Shown one piece after another: positions 256 to 20,286 of a stretch of DNA of 28,465 bases. A program made the translations under genes and the position numbers. Within the stretch, counting starts at the first letter, position 1; each line of letters starts with the position of its first letter. The notes beneath the pieces are model-generated. The model did no database searches. It had not been told where the DNA came from and worked only from the letters and a program-made list of their open reading frames with translations. The stretch lies in the IMG/VR virus record IMGVR_UViG_3300037840_000560, positions 1-28,465 of that record; one strand, written 5' to 3'. The stretch comes from a virus.

Positions 256-1665
256 ATGATTTTCCGGGGCGCGATGATCCAGTGGTCGGCTGTTGAATCG
301 GTCACGGCGGAAGCGGCGTTTCGCCGCGAGGCGGCCCGGCGCAAGTTCAACACGGAGGACATTCGGTTTTTATATTTCATTCTGGAACATTCCTGGATGG
401 AGGGATGGGCCTGGATGCGCGCCAAGCGGCGGCGGTCGTTTCGCGCCATCGAGCGGCACAAGGCGGTGATTACGCGCACTTTGGACCGGCTTTTGGCGTG
501 GAAGGTGCTGCTTTTAGGCCCGAATGATGTATATTGGATCAATCCGGATTTTGACGCCTGGATGGTGGAGCGGAAGGACGAAACGGACGCGGGCAACGGC
601 AAGCGGGAGCCGGACCTGCCCTTCGAGCCGGACCTGCCCGCGGCGCTTGAGGAATTTTATCTTGAAAAACTCGCGGGAAAGTTTACCAAGATTTTCGCAA
701 TTTTGCCTGCCTCGGACCGGACCCCTGTTTCGGACGAGAGCAAACCAGAAGCCGAGCAACCCATCCCTGGTCAACGCGCGGATGAGGGAATGGGCGGGGG
801 CAAAAACGACAGCAATGTCGTGGGCTCGCAGCCTTTGGGGCTGAGGCCGGAGGCAATCCCTCCGGCCTATTCTATTTCGTCAACCAGCGTGGGGCCCAGT
901 GGCCCTGCGCAAGTAGCGGTTGCGCACGGCCACGGTGGATCACCGCTGGCCGCGGCGCAAGCACCAACTCCCACCGGCCACGAAGCGACCGCGGGAGTTG
1001 ATAAAAAATCAACTTCTCCTTCCCTAAGCGCGATGGTCGCGGCGGAAGTTGATAAAAAATCAACTTTTAGCGGTGAGATGCAAGCCGTGAAAGTTGATAA
1101 AAAATCAACTTCTCAACTTCCGGCTGCGGCCGCGCGAGTTGATAAAAAATCAACTTTGGCGGTTCCAGCCAATGTTTGCGGGCTTCTCTTCGCGGTTGAT
1201 AAAAAATCAACTTTCGCCAGCGTTGCCGCCCCGCTTTCCCCCCCTCTGTACTCCCCCCAAGTACTTGAAGAAGTACCTGTAAAGACAAGTACTCAGACAG
1301 GTACTTGGGGGGAAAAATCCGGAGTAACTGGATTGGCAAAAATGCCCCTGCGTAACTGGCGCGACGAACACGCGCTCGTGGATTTGATCAGGGAATTCCT
1401 GGGCCGAACGGTGATGGATGGGGATGGAACATTGCTTCCCAATGGGAAACCCAACTTGGGTTCGGGCGGCTGGTGGCGCAAGCATGTAGTGAGGAATTTT
1501 CCGGCGGACATCATCGAGGAGGCGTGCGGCGAGGGCCGCATGATGGTGTTGACCAACCGGCCATTCAACAATTGCCGTGAGGCCTGGCTGAAGGGATACC
1601 TCGCGAAGCTGGCCGGTCGGGAGAATTTGCGCGGGCTGCCGCCCGGGCCGCCGCCAGTCAAATAG
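256..1665 (+). CDS. lambda-O-like replication initiator with internal iterons
   Basis: Probable phage replication initiator that binds the origin and recruits the host replisome. The N-terminal ~100 residues read as a winged helix resembling the phage replication protein O N-terminal domain: a helix with FLYFILEH, a recognition-helix region with TRTLDRLLAW, and a wing ending in VYWINPDFDAW. A long low-complexity linker follows, carrying five VDKKST hexapeptides. The C-terminal ~90 residues (GGWWRKHVV, FNNCREAWLKGYLAKLAG) form a second compact domain, perhaps for partner binding. The ATG at 256 is chosen because GGAGG lies 7 nt upstream; an in-frame TTG at 163 would translate through a hairpin repeat. 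The layout of DNA-binding domain, iterons in the linker and partner domain matches lambda O. The family call rests on pattern recognition; that it is a DNA-binding protein is more certain than that it is an initiator. Confidence 0.65.
   Translation: MIFRGAMIQWSAVESVTAEAAFRREAARRKFNTEDIRFLYFILEHSWMEGWAWMRAKRRRSFRAIERHKAVITRTLDRLLAWKVLLLGPNDVYWINPDFDAWMVERKDETDAGNGKREPDLPFEPDLPAALEEFYLEKLAGKFTKIFAILPASDRTPVSDESKPEAEQPIPGQRADEGMGGGKNDSNVVGSQPLGLRPEAIPPAYSISSTSVGPSGPAQVAVAHGHGGSPLAAAQAPTPTGHEATAGVDKKSTSPSLSAMVAAEVDKKSTFSGEMQAVKVDKKSTSQLPAAAARVDKKSTLAVPANVCGLLFAVDKKSTFASVAAPLSPPLYSPQVLEEVPVKTSTQTGTWGEKSGVTGLAKMPLRNWRDEHALVDLIREFLGRTVMDGDGTLLPNGKPNLGSGGWWRKHVVRNFPADIIEEACGEGRMMVLTNRPFNNCREAWLKGYLAKLAGRENLRGLPPGPPPVK
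996..1212. repeat. five iteron-like 19-bp palindromes (candidate origin)
   Basis: The unit AGTTGATAAAAAATCAACT has 7-bp arms and an A5 centre. Copies lie at 996-1014, 1047-1065, 1092-1110, 1137-1155 and 1194-1212; only the last differs, with G at its first base. Start-to-start distances are 51, 45, 45 and 57 bp, all multiples of three because the array is translated. The intervening sequence is GC-rich and not repeated. In lambda the O-binding iterons also lie inside the O gene and have dyad symmetry, so an origin is the leading reading. An operator array is the alternative. Confidence 0.7.
1248..1313. repeat. GTAC-box cluster with nested inverted repeats
   Basis: Five GTAC cores start at 1248, 1261, 1273, 1289 and 1301; the last four are spaced symmetrically 12, 16 and 12 bp. 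AAGTACCTGT (1271-1280) is perfectly inverted at 1297-1306. The outer arms start with CCCCCCAAGTAC on the left and mirror GTACTTGGGGGG on the right. CAAGTACTTG at 1258-1267 is itself a palindrome. The cluster lies 36 bp after the last iteron inside the initiator gene and may be a second binding site of the origin. Confidence 0.55.
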
Positions 1666-6518: not shown

Positions 6519-6612
6519 GGCAAGCGCTCCGTTGTAAAAGTTTTTATGGTGAGGTTTCACTTGATGGCCATCCGCAAGGATTTTGAAATCTGAAATTTTG
6601 GATTTGAGATCG

Positions 6613-7072: not shown

Positions 7073-10000
7073 TTACCAGGGAATGACATTGCCGCTTAAC
7101 CCTGAGGCGGCCGTAATGCTGCCGCCCGGTTGCAGGTTGAACGCTTGATGGACGAACGTCGCCGTCGTATTGGTCAGAACTGCAGCGCCGGCATTGTTGA
7201 ACACGGTCGAAGTAATAGAGGTGCAGGACAAATAAGCCGTGGCGTTCCGTCCGAGCGTATTGGTGATTCCCGTTCCGGTGATGACCAGCCCCGCGATGGC
7301 TGATCGGGAATACAGCGAGCCGGCTGCCGAAGGCATTGGAAAGAAATTCGCAAATGGCGTCCCCGCCGGAAGCGTTACCTGCAAATTCCATTTATAAGCC
7401 AGATAGGCTTCAAGAATCTGCCGGTCGGCATCCGTGATGGCTGTATCGAGAATGATGACCTCGCGCACATGGCCGCCTAAATAGTTTCCAGCGGACACTG
7501 CCGAACCAATTTCAATTACCGCCGTGGTGTTGGGAACATTGCCAGCGGTTTCAGTCGTGCTGATGGCCACGCCATTCAGCCACACGCGCGAGCGCGAAGC
7601 GGAAACCGTTGCCGTGATGATTATCGGTTGAAAATTCGCAAGACTTCCAAATGGCCCGAACGCTCTGGGGGCATTGCCGCTGGAATAACCGTTTCCAAAA
7701 ATCGCGAGGTCATTGACCAGCCAGTCGTTGCCCGTGCCGCCAGTTGTGAATAATGCCTTCCCGGAACTGCCCCCTGAATTATAAGATTGCGAAACGAACG
7801 GCGCGTAATTCGCCGAGGTCCAATTCTCATCCGCACACACTATGATGGTGAGATTCGTTCCAGTGGTAGTGGAAGCGGTCTGCATGGAGTTATTGTTGGC
7901 GTTGAAGAACACCCAGGGCAATCCGTTGGAATCAACCCCATAAACCGGAGCCGAGCCGCCAGCGGATGTGGTATTCAGCGCTTGCGGGCCTGAATCGGGC
8001 CAATTAACCACACTACTGCCAATGACCAGATTGGTTACGGCATCAGCCTTCAAATGCAGGTGGACCGTGTAATTGCTCTCCACCACGAAGCCGCCCAGTC
8101 CCAGCGTGGTGATTTTGGCGTTGGTGGAAACGAGCAGTGAATTTGTAAGCGTTCCAATATTTCCGTTGGTGGCCTGGATATTTGTCGTCGCCGTCACCAC
8201 TCGGTCGCTACTGATATTTTTGCCCAGTGCCGCCAGATAGATATTTTGCGTATCATCCCACATCACCTTCGGACCGTTATCCATGAACAATTCAAAGCTC
8301 TGGGCTTGACCTGTCCATCCAGAAATCGGGACGTGAATGGGACTGGACCAGTTCGTTAAATCAACACTGGTAGTCAAATCTGCGATGCTGGTTGAGCCGC
8401 AGCAGAGCGAGCAAGCCATTACGAACGAGCCGTCCAACATCCGCAATATGGACGGGTCCTGCGTGTAGTTATTGGTGGTGGACGTGTCATCGAACACCGG
8501 CAAGCCATATTTCGTAAAAGGTCCCTGCGGATTTGAGGCGGTCGCAAAACCAATGCGTTCATGCAAGTCGCCGCCGCTGCCGTTATAAAACAAATAATAG
8601 AGTCCGTTGTTTTTAAGTCCAAAACCGCGCCAACAATTGCCCTGGTCGAAGGTTGCAGCAGTGGGAGTCAGCAGCGGGTTGTTCGCCGACTTCGTCCAAT
8701 TCGTGGGATTCCAATTGGTCGAGATTAATTGGTAAGCGACCCCGATTGAATGCGATCCCAACTCAAAACCGGCGGTTGTGCCGCCGAAATAATACATGTA
8801 GTCATAAGCGCCATCGGTGAAGATTCGCGGACCTTGCACCTGCGCAGAGTCCCAGGTTGCGGCGGTGTTGCTCAACGCGACGCCGCCTGGAACCAATGAG
8901 TAAAAATCCCGGCCGGAAGCATAAGCGATGACGGCGTGATCCGTTCCACCTGACGCGGTGTTGACGCCGTAAAACACATAAAGCTTTCCGTTGCGCACAA
9001 TGTGAGTTGAGCAGCGCAGATTGTAAGTATCGTAATTGGACTGATTGTAAGACATCACCGCGCCTGCGTAATTCCACTGCGAAAAAGCAGATGCCGCTAC
9101 GTCGAGGGACATTGGCGTATTAGAACTGGAAAGTTGGCTCGCGATATTCGTTCCGGTTAGTGCCGTCAGAAGCGCGCCGTTGCCGCCTAATTGATTCGCT
9201 GGATTGGTCGCGTTCAATACGCCCGCGACGCCTTCATTGCCGGAATTGGTCCCGCTTGAATTGGTTAATGCGCCAGTCGTGACGCTGGAGACATTCAGCG
9301 GGATGCTGCCCGCTGCCAGTGCATTAGTCAGATTGTTCGTCGCGATATTGCCCGTAATCGCCGCCGCCGGCGCGACCGCCACCACCGTCGCCCCCTGCGT
9401 CCCCGTCACATTGCCCGCCAGGTTGCCGCTGAAACTCCCCGCGCTCGTCGCCAGCGGCACCGTCCCCGTCACATTCGCCCCCGTCAAACCCGTCAACGCC
9501 GCCCCGCTGATCGCCGGCAGCGAGGCCACCACCGTCGCCCCCTGCGTCCCCGTCACATTGCCTGAAAGCGATCCGCTGAAATTCACCGCGCTACCAGCCA
9601 GCGCCAGTTGCGCCTTCGTCGCCGCATTAAGCGCGTTGCTGCTCACCGTTCCCGGCGTAATGTTCGCGCCAGGCAGTCCGGTCAGCAACGAGCCATCGCC
9701 CTGATAGCCTGGCACACTCGCCGCATAATACGCCGCGCTGCCATCCGTCCCGCCAATGCCATAAAATCCATACCCCGCCTGGTTGGGCGACACCACCACG
9801 GTCCCGTCAAAATCAAAATCCGCGCCTGAGACGGTGTGAAAACGCAAATTGCTACCGTAATCATAGAGCAGAAATTTATTCGCCCCCGTGGTGTCCACGA
9901 CGGACAGCGCGCCGGTCCCGTTGCCCGTCGGATTCACGCTGGCATCCTGGAAGGTGGTCCCGCCCGGATTGACGGCGCCGGCATGCAGGTACAGGCTGTC

Positions 10001-10411
10001 GCTCGCCGTCGTGTTGTAAGCCACACCCGATCCCGCCACGCCGCAGCCCGTCACGGAATTCTGCGTCACGTAATTCGTCGAGTTGTAATTCGTGATGCTG
10101 AACGTGGCCGGCGTGATCCCCTGGTAAATCCCCGTCGCGCTCGCCGTCCATACGCCGAGCAACAGATTCGTCATCGTCACCAGGCCGTTGGAATCGCTGT
10201 AGAAATAAAGCGGGTCGGACGTTGCCCAACCGCCGTTCGCGTTCATCACCGGGCCGCTCGCCACCACTTGCACCATCGCATTGGTCACGGCAACATTGTT
10301 TCCCGTCGTCAGCGGCCAAAGCTCGGTGGCCGCCCGCGCCGGCGAGGATCCGAGCGTGAGAGCGGCGAGAAGCCAGGGAAGTTTGCGGGCAAGTCTGCTG
10401 ATGATGTTCAC
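7073..10411 (-). CDS. large exported tail fibre/spike with beta-propeller and LamG-like domains
   Basis: 1112 residues from GTG 10411. Residues 1-28 form a clear Sec signal peptide (basic RLARK, core LLAALTLG, cleavage ARA-A). Residues ~30-430 are fibre-like and repetitive; GNVTGTQGATVVA occurs twice, 49 codons apart. Residues ~450-740 resemble five-bladed propeller glycosidases of the GH43/GH32 type (blade-like strings STHIVRNGKLYVFYG, DPSILRMLDGSFVMACS). Residues ~780-1015 form a concanavalin/LamG-like domain ending in ILEAYLAYKWNL. The tail is Ser/Thr-rich. Position after the tape measure and minor tail genes indicates a receptor-binding or glycan-degrading spike. A signal peptide on such a protein is unusual. 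An RTTGACT box lies 13 nt upstream of the start. Confidence 0.65.
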   Translation of the reverse strand: MNIISRLARKLPWLLAALTLGSSPARAATELWPLTTGNNVAVTNAMVQVVASGPVMNANGGWATSDPLYFYSDSNGLVTMTNLLLGVWTASATGIYQGITPATFSITNYNSTNYVTQNSVTGCGVAGSGVAYNTTASDSLYLHAGAVNPGGTTFQDASVNPTGNGTGALSVVDTTGANKFLLYDYGSNLRFHTVSGADFDFDGTVVVSPNQAGYGFYGIGGTDGSAAYYAASVPGYQGDGSLLTGLPGANITPGTVSSNALNAATKAQLALAGSAVNFSGSLSGNVTGTQGATVVASLPAISGAALTGLTGANVTGTVPLATSAGSFSGNLAGNVTGTQGATVVAVAPAAAITGNIATNNLTNALAAGSIPLNVSSVTTGALTNSSGTNSGNEGVAGVLNATNPANQLGGNGALLTALTGTNIASQLSSSNTPMSLDVAASAFSQWNYAGAVMSYNQSNYDTYNLRCSTHIVRNGKLYVFYGVNTASGGTDHAVIAYASGRDFYSLVPGGVALSNTAATWDSAQVQGPRIFTDGAYDYMYYFGGTTAGFELGSHSIGVAYQLISTNWNPTNWTKSANNPLLTPTAATFDQGNCWRGFGLKNNGLYYLFYNGSGGDLHERIGFATASNPQGPFTKYGLPVFDDTSTTNNYTQDPSILRMLDGSFVMACSLCCGSTSIADLTTSVDLTNWSSPIHVPISGWTGQAQSFELFMDNGPKVMWDDTQNIYLAALGKNISSDRVVTATTNIQATNGNIGTLTNSLLVSTNAKITTLGLGGFVVESNYTVHLHLKADAVTNLVIGSSVVNWPDSGPQALNTTSAGGSAPVYGVDSNGLPWVFFNANNNSMQTASTTTGTNLTIIVCADENWTSANYAPFVSQSYNSGGSSGKALFTTGGTGNDWLVNDLAIFGNGYSSGNAPRAFGPFGSLANFQPIIITATVSASRSRVWLNGVAISTTETAGNVPNTTAVIEIGSAVSAGNYLGGHVREVIILDTAITDADRQILEAYLAYKWNLQVTLPAGTPFANFFPMPSAAGSLYSRSAIAGLVITGTGITNTLGRNATAYLSCTSITSTVFNNAGAAVLTNTTATFVHQAFNLQPGGSITAASGLSGNVIPW
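9378..9562. repeat. 38-bp direct repeat inside the fibre gene
   Basis: An identical 38-bp segment lies at 9378-9415 and 9525-9562, 147 bp apart, encoding GNVTGTQGATVVA twice. The surrounding codons are also similar, which suggests in-frame duplication of a fibre repeat. Confidence 0.75.
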
Positions 10412-10445: not shown

Positions 10446-10559
10446 TTACAAGTTCAAGGTTTCAAGTTTAAAGTCAAGGAGCGCGGTTTCCCAACTTGAA
10501 ACCTTAAACTTGAAACCTATCGGGGACTTGAAACTTTAAACCTTAAACCTTGAACCTTT
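10446..10559. repeat. AAACCTTGAAACTT-type repeat region with inverted arms
   Basis: The gap between two fibre genes is mostly low-complexity sequence. AGGTTTCAAGTTTAA (10457-10471) is perfectly inverted at 10504-10518. CGGGGACTTGAAAC (10521-10534) recurs at 13736-13749. I see no gene in it. Confidence 0.75.
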
Positions 10560-11403: not shown

Positions 11404-12975
11404 CTAAGGTGAAATCAGCGCCGAAAGAATCACATTCGTGTCCGGCGGATTATTGACCCGCGCGCCCACCACCAGTTGCGCCACGCGATACGGGCCGTTG
11501 TTGGTCAGCAGCATTCCCCAGTTCGTGGCGGCGACCGGGATCAATCCGGTCGTGTTCAAAGTGATCATGTTCGTCGGCCAGGAAATCAGGCGCACCGTGC
11601 CATCCGCATTGCCCAGAATCGTGACCGTCAGCCACCGCGGCCCGTTCGTGGCGTAGCTGAAATGCACATCCCCGGTGCCCGCGATCACCGCGCTGTCGTA
11701 ACTCGTGAAATCAAAGACAAAATTCGTCACCGCGCTGAACGCCGTCCACGTGCCAAACGCCTGGGGACTCAACAATCCCGCCATGTCCGCCGCCACCATC
11801 GCCCGCTGCGTCAGCGGCGCGGTGCTCCCGCTCGCCGGCCCCGCCACAAACATGTTCGCGTTCGCCGTCGCCGGCTGCAGCGTGATGCTGCCCGCGGTCG
11901 TGACCGGCGACCCCAGCGGCGTCGCGCCCGAAGTCACACTGTCGCCGATGACGCCGATGCTCGTCACCGTGCCGCCGTTCGCAAACACCTGCCAGCCCGA
12001 TCGCGTCAAAATCGCCTGCGGCAGCGCGGACCCGTTGCCCAGGTAACTCGGGATGGCCACGCCGCCGGACAGCGGCACAAAATAATTGGAAGCCACGCTC
12101 CCCGTGAGCAGCGAACTCCCGCCCGTATAAGTCTGGTTCGGCGCGATATTGTTCGCCTCCGAGAAGGTGGCGGCGCCCGTGCCAATGCTGATGCCGTTCA
12201 CGCCGCCCGGATCATACAGATTATCAAACCCCGCGTTGATCAGCCAGCGCGGCACCAGGCCCGCGCCATAATCCAGCTCGTAATGGTTCGTCACCGCCTG
12301 GTACAGATTGTTCTCGCTGAACTGGACGAAATTATTCGTCGCCGTCACGCCCGTGATAAACGAATTACTCGCCGCCGTCCCCGTGATGAAACCCGCCACC
12401 GCGGTGGCCGGCGCAAACAGCGCCATTGCCTTCGCATTGGTCGGGATCGCGGTCGTCACCGCGCTCGAGGCGATAAACGATTCAATCCCGTTTGCCGTGT
12501 TCGTCAGCTCATCCAGCCCCACAATCGCCGCGTTCCCGCGAAACACCGTCCAGTTGCCGGCGAGGCCTTGCGTCGCGAAAGTCAGCGTGCACCAATACGA
12601 AAACCCGTTCGTCAACACCGCCAGCGCCGCGGCGTTCTGCCCCTGAAACACCACCGTGTTCGTCCCCACCATCCGGACTGAGACATTCGGCGCTGGCACG
12701 GCCGCATAAGCGAAAAACAAATTGGTGGCCGCTCCGCCGATCGTGCCCGCGATCAATAGCTGGTTGTTCGCCGAGGTGACATTGTTCGTCCACGTCCGCA
12801 CCGCGCCGTTCACGCTGAACGTGTTGCCGTAAGCGACCCCGGCCGTATTCGTGACCACCACCGTGCAAGTCACAATCTGCGCGTGAAGAGAGCAGGGGAG
12901 CAAAGCCATCAACGCCAGGGCGCCAAGCCGCAAACTCGCTTTGAAATTTGAGATTTGAAATTTTAAATTTGTCAT
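11404..12975 (-). CDS. exported fibre-like protein
   Basis: 523 residues from ATG 12975. The N-terminus reads as a Sec signal peptide: n-region TNLKFQISNFKASLRL, core GALALMALLP, cleavage near LHA-Q. The n-region is encoded by an AAATTTGAAATTT-type repeat. The body is beta-rich with Thr/Asn/Gly-rich repeats such as FITGTAASNSFITGVTATNNF and a later PLTQRAMVAADMAG segment typical of fibre shafts. No enzymatic motif is seen. A tail fibre or surface adhesin is the likely role. An upstream in-frame start at 13005 would lie in a GCAGGC-CTC-GCCTGC hairpin (12987-13001) and is not preferred. Confidence 0.55.
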   Translation of the reverse strand: MTNLKFQISNFKASLRLGALALMALLPCSLHAQIVTCTVVVTNTAGVAYGNTFSVNGAVRTWTNNVTSANNQLLIAGTIGGAATNLFFAYAAVPAPNVSVRMVGTNTVVFQGQNAAALAVLTNGFSYWCTLTFATQGLAGNWTVFRGNAAIVGLDELTNTANGIESFIASSAVTTAIPTNAKAMALFAPATAVAGFITGTAASNSFITGVTATNNFVQFSENNLYQAVTNHYELDYGAGLVPRWLINAGFDNLYDPGGVNGISIGTGAATFSEANNIAPNQTYTGGSSLLTGSVASNYFVPLSGGVAIPSYLGNGSALPQAILTRSGWQVFANGGTVTSIGVIGDSVTSGATPLGSPVTTAGSITLQPATANANMFVAGPASGSTAPLTQRAMVAADMAGLLSPQAFGTWTAFSAVTNFVFDFTSYDSAVIAGTGDVHFSYATNGPRWLTVTILGNADGTVRLISWPTNMITLNTTGLIPVAATNWGMLLTNNGPYRVAQLVVGARVNNPPDTNVILSALISP

Positions 12976-15102: not shown

Positions 15103-15200
15103 AGTGCGGAGTGCGGAGTGACGAGTGCGGAATTTCCGGAGTCCGGTGTCCACGCTTTAGCGTGTCCCAACTCCGCGCTCCGCACTCCGCATTCCGCATT
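15103..15200. repeat. GTGCGGAGT repeat with 14-bp inverted arms
   Basis: TGCGGAGTGCGGAG (15105-15118) is perfectly inverted at 15178-15191. Between the arms lies a second hairpin, CACGCT-TT-AGCGTG (15151-15164). The whole gap between two genes is repeat-derived. No gene is seen in it. Confidence 0.75.
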
Positions 15201-15204
15201 TATT

Positions 15205-19785: not shown

Positions 19786-20250
19786 TCAGACCAGGCCGCT
19801 TGTCGGCGTGACCGTCACCGTCAGCCGCGCCGAACCATTCACCAGGTGGTAATGCGCATCGAGCTTCACCAGATTATACTGCGCGCCCAACCCCGCGATT
19901 TCCGCCGCCAACAGCGTTTTATACCGGTCCGGAATCGCCGAGGCGTTAACCGCCTTCGCGACCCCGTCCCGCGTCCCCGATAACCCCATCAACTCCCACC
20001 ACCCCGCCGGCTTGCTGCGCGGCCCATGGACCGGCTCCGGTAGGGCGGCGCTGCCGCGCCGCCGCCGCAACACCGCCTGCACCCCAATCGCCGACGGCCC
20101 CGGCATTGGTCCCCCGACCGGCGCCGGCAATTTGACCGGCGGTGGCACTACGCTAGTAGCCGGCGCTGCTGTTTCCACTCCCTCGCCCCTCGGAGGGGAG
20201 AGGGCCGGGGTGAGGGGTGCAGTCGGCTTTGAAATTGGAGGTGTGTCCAT
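19786..20250 (-). CDS. small tail-module protein with repeat-built N-terminal half
   Basis: 154 residues. Residues ~1-75 are Pro-rich and include LTPALSPPRGEG, encoded by the hairpin-forming repeat at 20180-20218, and RGSAALPEP, encoded by hairpin repeat copy 5 (20039-20063). The folded part is the C-terminal ~70 residues (GWWELMGLSGTRDGVAKAVNASAIPDRYKTLLAAEIAGLGAQYN...). The gene's start lies next to a four-copy AAATCGT tandem. Function unknown. The native start may be lost or lie downstream, and the long N-terminal half may be an accretion of repeats. Confidence 0.5.
   Translation of the reverse strand: MDTPPISKPTAPLTPALSPPRGEGVETAAPATSVVPPPVKLPAPVGGPMPGPSAIGVQAVLRRRRGSAALPEPVHGPRSKPAGWWELMGLSGTRDGVAKAVNASAIPDRYKTLLAAEIAGLGAQYNLVKLDAHYHLVNGSARLTVTVTPTSGLV
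20039..20063. repeat. hairpin repeat copy 5, inside a gene
   Basis: GGTAG, stem GGCGGCGC (20044-20051), loop TGCC, stem GCGCCGCC (20056-20063). It is read in frame by the leftward gene. Confidence 0.85.
20180..20218. repeat. dispersed CCCTCGCCCCTCGG-type repeat
   Basis: The stem CCCTC-x-CCCCT is mirrored by AGGGG-x-GAGGG at 20180-20204. The encoded LTPALSPPRGEG resembles peptides seen widely where this kind of repeat enters coding sequence. Confidence 0.6.
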
Positions 20251-20251
20251 A

Positions 20252-20279
20252 AAATCGTAAATCGTAAATCGTAAATCGT
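20252..20279. repeat. AAATCGT tandem, four copies
   Basis: Four exact 7-bp units sit between the genes at 19786 and 20287. They form the AT-rich leader of the downstream gene. Confidence 0.85.
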
Positions 20280-20286
20280 AAATTCC

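Follow-up and report, generated by a model that had tools for sequence, protein, structure and literature searches.

Iteron-like dyads inside a phage initiator gene: a candidate lambda-type replication origin

Why would a phage gene carry five identical palindromes within its coding sequence, each read as the same six residues in the same six codons? Such a gene lies near the start of the window (the whole 28,465-bp stretch of viral DNA, from an IMG/VR virus record, that was analyzed). The initial annotation proposed that DNA, not peptide, is selected here, and that the palindromes form a replication origin arranged as in phage lambda. Two questions follow: is the host gene an initiator; and do its repeats evolve as DNA sites or as a peptide?

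The initiator gene and its dyads

The gene (256..1665, + strand) encodes a protein of 469 residues, with its start at ATG 256 and GGAGG at 244-248; the longest open reading frame begins at TTG 163. Homology and predicted fold place it among winged-helix replication initiators, in the lambda O and DnaD-like loader group, in agreement with the initial annotation of an initiator gene. The amino-terminal part matches PHROG 16826 (DnaD-like helicase loader; E 2e-5 to 7e-6), and the nearest homologue, in contig L108, is 35% identical (E 1.7e-16). In hhalign, a two-sequence profile (window plus L108) of the amino-terminal domain matched a Phage_rep_O-type profile that includes lambda O at 96% (E 2.8e-9); two control comparisons gave 0.1-0.2%. 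A Pfam search of the window protein returned no hit, Phage_rep_O (PF04492) at its gathering score included, and the corresponding protein of a related phage, G012, reaches only E 0.013 against that family.

AlphaFold predicts two domains. The first, a winged-helix DNA-binding domain (approximately residues 12-102; 289..561, +), has the order H-H-E-H-H-E-E and a core pLDDT of ~90; among PDB structures, Foldseek matched it best to a winged-helix repressor (probability 0.99, E 0.06). The predicted recognition helix comprises residues 69-81 (460-498, +). The second is a carboxyl-terminal helical domain (1354..1665, +; core pLDDT ~90), which is common, by HMM and alignment, to the initiators of G012, G018, G013, G014, and L116; the HMM was built partly from the window and G018 sequences themselves. 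Searches with the carboxyl-terminal 115 residues gave no Pfam or PHROG hit and no DnaB_2 (DnaD) domain, and a PDB fold search with this domain gave no match. Presumably, it contacts the helicase or its loader. Among the window's genes, none was identified as a helicase.

The linker between these domains contains the array. The 19-bp sequence GTTGATAAAAAATCAACTT occurs five times at 997-1213 (997-1015, 1048-1066, 1093-1111, 1138-1156, and 1195-1213), with copy-to-copy spacings of 51, 45, 45, and 57 bp, and is absent from the rest of the window. The 17-bp core forms a perfect dyad of 6-5-6 geometry, with 6-bp arms on either side of a 5-bp A-tract. In iterons 1 to 4 the symmetry extends to 19 bp, AGTTGAT-AAAAA-ATCAACT (996..1014, 1047..1065, 1092..1110, and 1137..1155, all +). 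Iteron 5 is preceded by G, leaving a 17-bp dyad, GTTGAT-AAAAA-ATCAAC (1195..1211, +). The earlier description of five 19-bp dyads is therefore correct as to five identical copies, but its 19-bp symmetry holds for the first four only. Shuffled sequence (100 shuffles) gave an expectation of 0.71 dyads with at most two mismatches per window, and a maximum of 2; the window has five perfect matches, all in the array, and one other, with two mismatches, at 2264.

All five copies are spelled GTT GAT AAA AAA TCA ACT (VDKKST), the identical codon choice that was annotated. The probability of identical spelling, given this phage's codon usage, is ~1e-8; GTT, TCA, and ACT are each only ~10% of codons in this phage. 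The sequences between the dyads are mutually unrelated, and so the array did not arise by segmental duplication. They are not, however, GC-rich as first described: their 46-68% GC is close to the phage average of 59%. AT-rich units set in GC-richer DNA might also be imagined as a mobile palindromic element, or an assembly artefact, inserted five times. This is scarcely credible, in view of the unrelated spacers, the absence of any copy elsewhere in the phage, and the different sequences that relatives carry in the same gene.

The reading frame also bears on the matter. Of the three possible frames, one places a stop codon (TGA) inside the dyad, so two were available; all five copies use a single one, and their spacings are all divisible by three. 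These features alone fail to separate selection on DNA from selection on peptide, and would also be found if VDKKST were a functional peptide repeat whose DNA identity reflected recent duplication or gene conversion. That account is very unlikely: the codons chosen are both rare and identical, and relatives retain a dyad even where they read it as another peptide, in another frame, or have it in non-coding DNA.

Dyads in related phages

About 25 related contigs were obtained from capsid and protease searches, and the window and those related contigs that were retrieved were scanned for arrays (at least three same-arm dyads within 600 bp). Only three phages scored: the window, G018, and G012, the latter two with a capsid protein ~70% identical to that of the window. 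In each, the array lies inside an initiator-like gene. The G018 initiator linker contains four dyads of the type AGTTGGT-AAATT-ACCAACT (arms GTTGGT/ACCAAC); that of G012 contains four copies of TGTTGGG-AAAAT-CCCAACA (arms GTTGGG/CCCAAC). Both arrays were found without a fixed arm sequence in the scan. Half-site changes between the phages (GTTGAT, GTTGGT, and GTTGGG) are mirrored on the opposite arm. Because both arms change, the dyad survives while VDKKST gives way to VGKLPT or VGKIPT in the peptide. Moreover, one of the four G012 dyads lies in another frame (CWENPN versus VGKIPT), and one is in the opposite orientation.

These phages belong to the same clade as the window by capsid, protease, and portal. 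A BLASTP comparison of the window and G018 initiators was not significant, and so the kinship of these two proteins rests on the carboxyl-terminal HMM, the place of the gene, and the layout. G013 and G014 have the carboxyl-terminal domain, a different amino terminus, and no clear array of the window's kind. No array was found in Akkermansia phage Chantilly.

A second scan, for GTTGG-N7-CCAAC pairs, prescribes arm positions 1-5, and so in its hits only positions 6-8 are informative on covariation. L108, grouped with the window by its initiator amino terminus, has six dyads with half-sites GTTGGC/T, of which two are in the initiator gene and four lie past its stop codon. Its array thus runs on into non-coding DNA, unlike that of the window. 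L126/L110 (one contig) carries ten copies, of which the visible ones use all three frames (VGESPT, CWRITN, and LLANHQ), and dyads in mixed frames occur also in G022, L116, and L100. L143 and L168 (winged-helix initiators, a function judged by eye from sequence) have dyads of the GTTGAC type, which fall in two frames. By contrast, where comparable dyads recur within the peptide repeats of tail-like or low-complexity proteins (L121, L114, L149, L156, L164, and L148), they keep to one frame. Several arrays contain unpaired arm positions (C-A, G-G).

Together with the codon identity, these changed arms, several frames, and non-coding copies support the view that the dyads are selected as a DNA signal rather than as a peptide repeat. 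Had the peptide been the object of selection, relatives might keep VDKKST with other codons; the opposite is seen, with the dyad kept in place and both arms and peptide altered. The search for the dyad in related initiator genes, suggested in the initial annotation, finds arrays with altered half-sites, in four to six copies, in G018, G012, and L108.

Comparison with lambda and a proposed origin

Proteins of the lambda O family form dimers and bind iterons located midway along gene O (PMC7466680). The layout of an origin within its own initiator gene is already known from lambda. Lambda iteron 1, as annotated, is TCCCTC-AAAAC-GAGGGA: a 6-5-6 dyad with an A-rich spacer, the same geometry as in the window, which upholds the analogy first drawn with lambda O. 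The four lambda iterons are spread over three frames of gene O. Both systems place their iterons in the linker of the initiator gene, between a winged-helix, O-type amino-terminal domain and a separate carboxyl-terminal domain.

The two also differ: in half-site, TCCCTC in lambda and GTTGAT in the window; in iteron spacing, 20-24 bp versus 45-57 bp; and in iteron number, four versus five. The window's carboxyl-terminal domain is not recognizably that of lambda, and the protein lacks a Pfam Phage_rep_O score. Lambda has an AT-rich tract of 85% AT in 20 bp, whereas no such tract was found adjoining the window array (at most ~65% AT per 20 bp outside the dyads, 980-1400). For this reason the window array is proposed to work like the lambda origin rather than to reproduce it exactly. 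The GC skew of the window fragment gave no origin signal.

A further comparison is provided by PHROG 16826 and its member L100, which has both Phage_rep_O and DnaB_2 domains. The amino-terminal domain of this family is homologous to that of the window protein (E 2e-5), and the L100 linker contains seven GTTGG-type dyads. The match is restricted to the amino-terminal domain, however: where L100 has its terminal DnaB_2 domain, the window protein has a different helical one. Base 5 of the dyad differs as well (L100, G; window, A).

The five dyads, then, are very probably the iterons of a lambda-type in-gene origin, each bound by a dimer of the encoded initiator. In the proposed mechanism, the winged-helix domain would bind GTTGAT-AAAAA-ATCAAC as a dimer, with one subunit per half-site, and the five loaded iterons would form a nucleoprotein complex. 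The carboxyl-terminal domain would then bring the replicative helicase, or a loader for it, alongside the array. The VDKKST-bearing linker peptide would be mainly a passive by-product of retaining the DNA sites. Computation shows the array, its symmetry and codon identity, the homology and predicted winged helix of the initiator, and the retention of an array at the same place in relatives; dimer binding, unwinding, origin activity, and helicase contact are inferred. The candidate in-gene origin with a new iteron sequence, as initially put forward, is thus supported. As far as the searches show, novelty lies in the iteron sequence, in the clade, and in how widely GTTGR-type in-gene arrays occur.

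Dyads of this form could instead be operators, bound by a phage repressor or by the initiator as an autoregulator only, so that they control transcription and form no origin. The 17-mer GTTGATAAAAAATCAAC does occur between divergent HTH-like genes in L028 (9327-9380) and beside a gene resembling an S24-type repressor in L044 (1456-1717), the genes in both cases being identified by eye; and many phage GTTGA-N7-TCAAC pairs have an operator-like spacing of 37-38 bp. Arrays in the window's clade are built otherwise: they lie in the linker or at the 3' end of the initiator gene, in 3-10 copies, and mostly at spacings of 22-60 bp. The identical layout serves as an origin in lambda. Operator function alone is accordingly judged unlikely.

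The covariation of the arms fits RNA as well as DNA, and any perfect dyad can give a hairpin, here with a 6-bp stem and a 5-nt loop. Hairpins in the initiator transcript, acting like terminators or in translational control, are nonetheless highly improbable. Such stems would be weak and AT-rich, without a T-run; copies are found in either orientation, and also 3' of a stop codon; several arrays have the unpaired arm positions noted above; and the lambda counterpart is a DNA site.

If the dyads are indeed iterons, the origin model offers a specific candidate origin for a clade of uncultured phages with an Akkermansia phage as a relative. The model would also mean that lambda's layout recurs, with new iterons, in very divergent phages, and that phage origins may be sought from sequence alone, by looking in initiator genes for dyad arrays that disregard the reading frame.

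How might initiator and iterons change together? At the recognition-helix position of window Val71, the seven aligned initiators that have GTTGG arrays all carry Asp or Asn, and the three that have GTTGA arrays carry Val, Ala, or Gly; lambda O carries Pro. Possibly, though with rather less than even confidence, this residue sets half-site base 5, so that iterons and initiator co-evolve by a simple code. The pattern is offered as a hypothesis only, because it was noticed afterwards, the sequences are non-independent, and L143 and L168 align weakly. If true, the in-gene origins of unrelated phages could be re-addressed by paired changes of helix and iteron within one gene, and the sequence of a phage initiator could reveal its iteron specificity.

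Clade, wider searches, and neighboring features

Among named phages, a related capsid was found only in Akkermansia phage Chantilly (31%), which suggests that the host is probably a member of the Verrucomicrobiota. No match came from tblastn against named phages, from capsid alignment against genome contigs, or from a search by peptide patterns for close protein relatives. Pairs of the exact dyad were absent from 84,980 genomes, and no GTTGAT pairs were found in viral contigs outside this record. The exact 17-mer occurs at 45 places in viral contigs, mostly AT-rich; these are mostly single copies, some of them probable repressor operators in unrelated phages.

A second palindromic element (1248..1313) follows the last iteron: a 29-nt inverted repeat with five GTAC-centred sites around it (1248, 1261, 1273, 1289, and 1301). 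At the corresponding place after its iterons, L108 has a cluster of four GTAC sites in ~50 bp (6525-6576). An HNH endonuclease gene (1674-2546, +) lies directly 3' of the initiator gene, and G012 has a homologue (56% over 180 aa).

Farther along, the window contains tandem arrays with a period of exactly 7 bp (10526-10558, 12940-12970, 15170-15201, and 20249-20286), each with a different unit and mostly between minus-strand genes. The same scan found none at periods 4-6 or 8-12. Similar 7-bp arrays are present elsewhere: nine in G012, two in L108, and one each in L051 and G021. The minus-strand gene at 7073-10411 encodes a 1112-aa protein with a weak match to glycosyl hydrolase family 43/32, possibly a tail-associated depolymerase. 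Finally, the dyad array of L126/L110 (contig IMGVR_UViG_3300038466_000012) spans both contig ends, which suggests that the genome is circular and was broken at the repeats of its origin.
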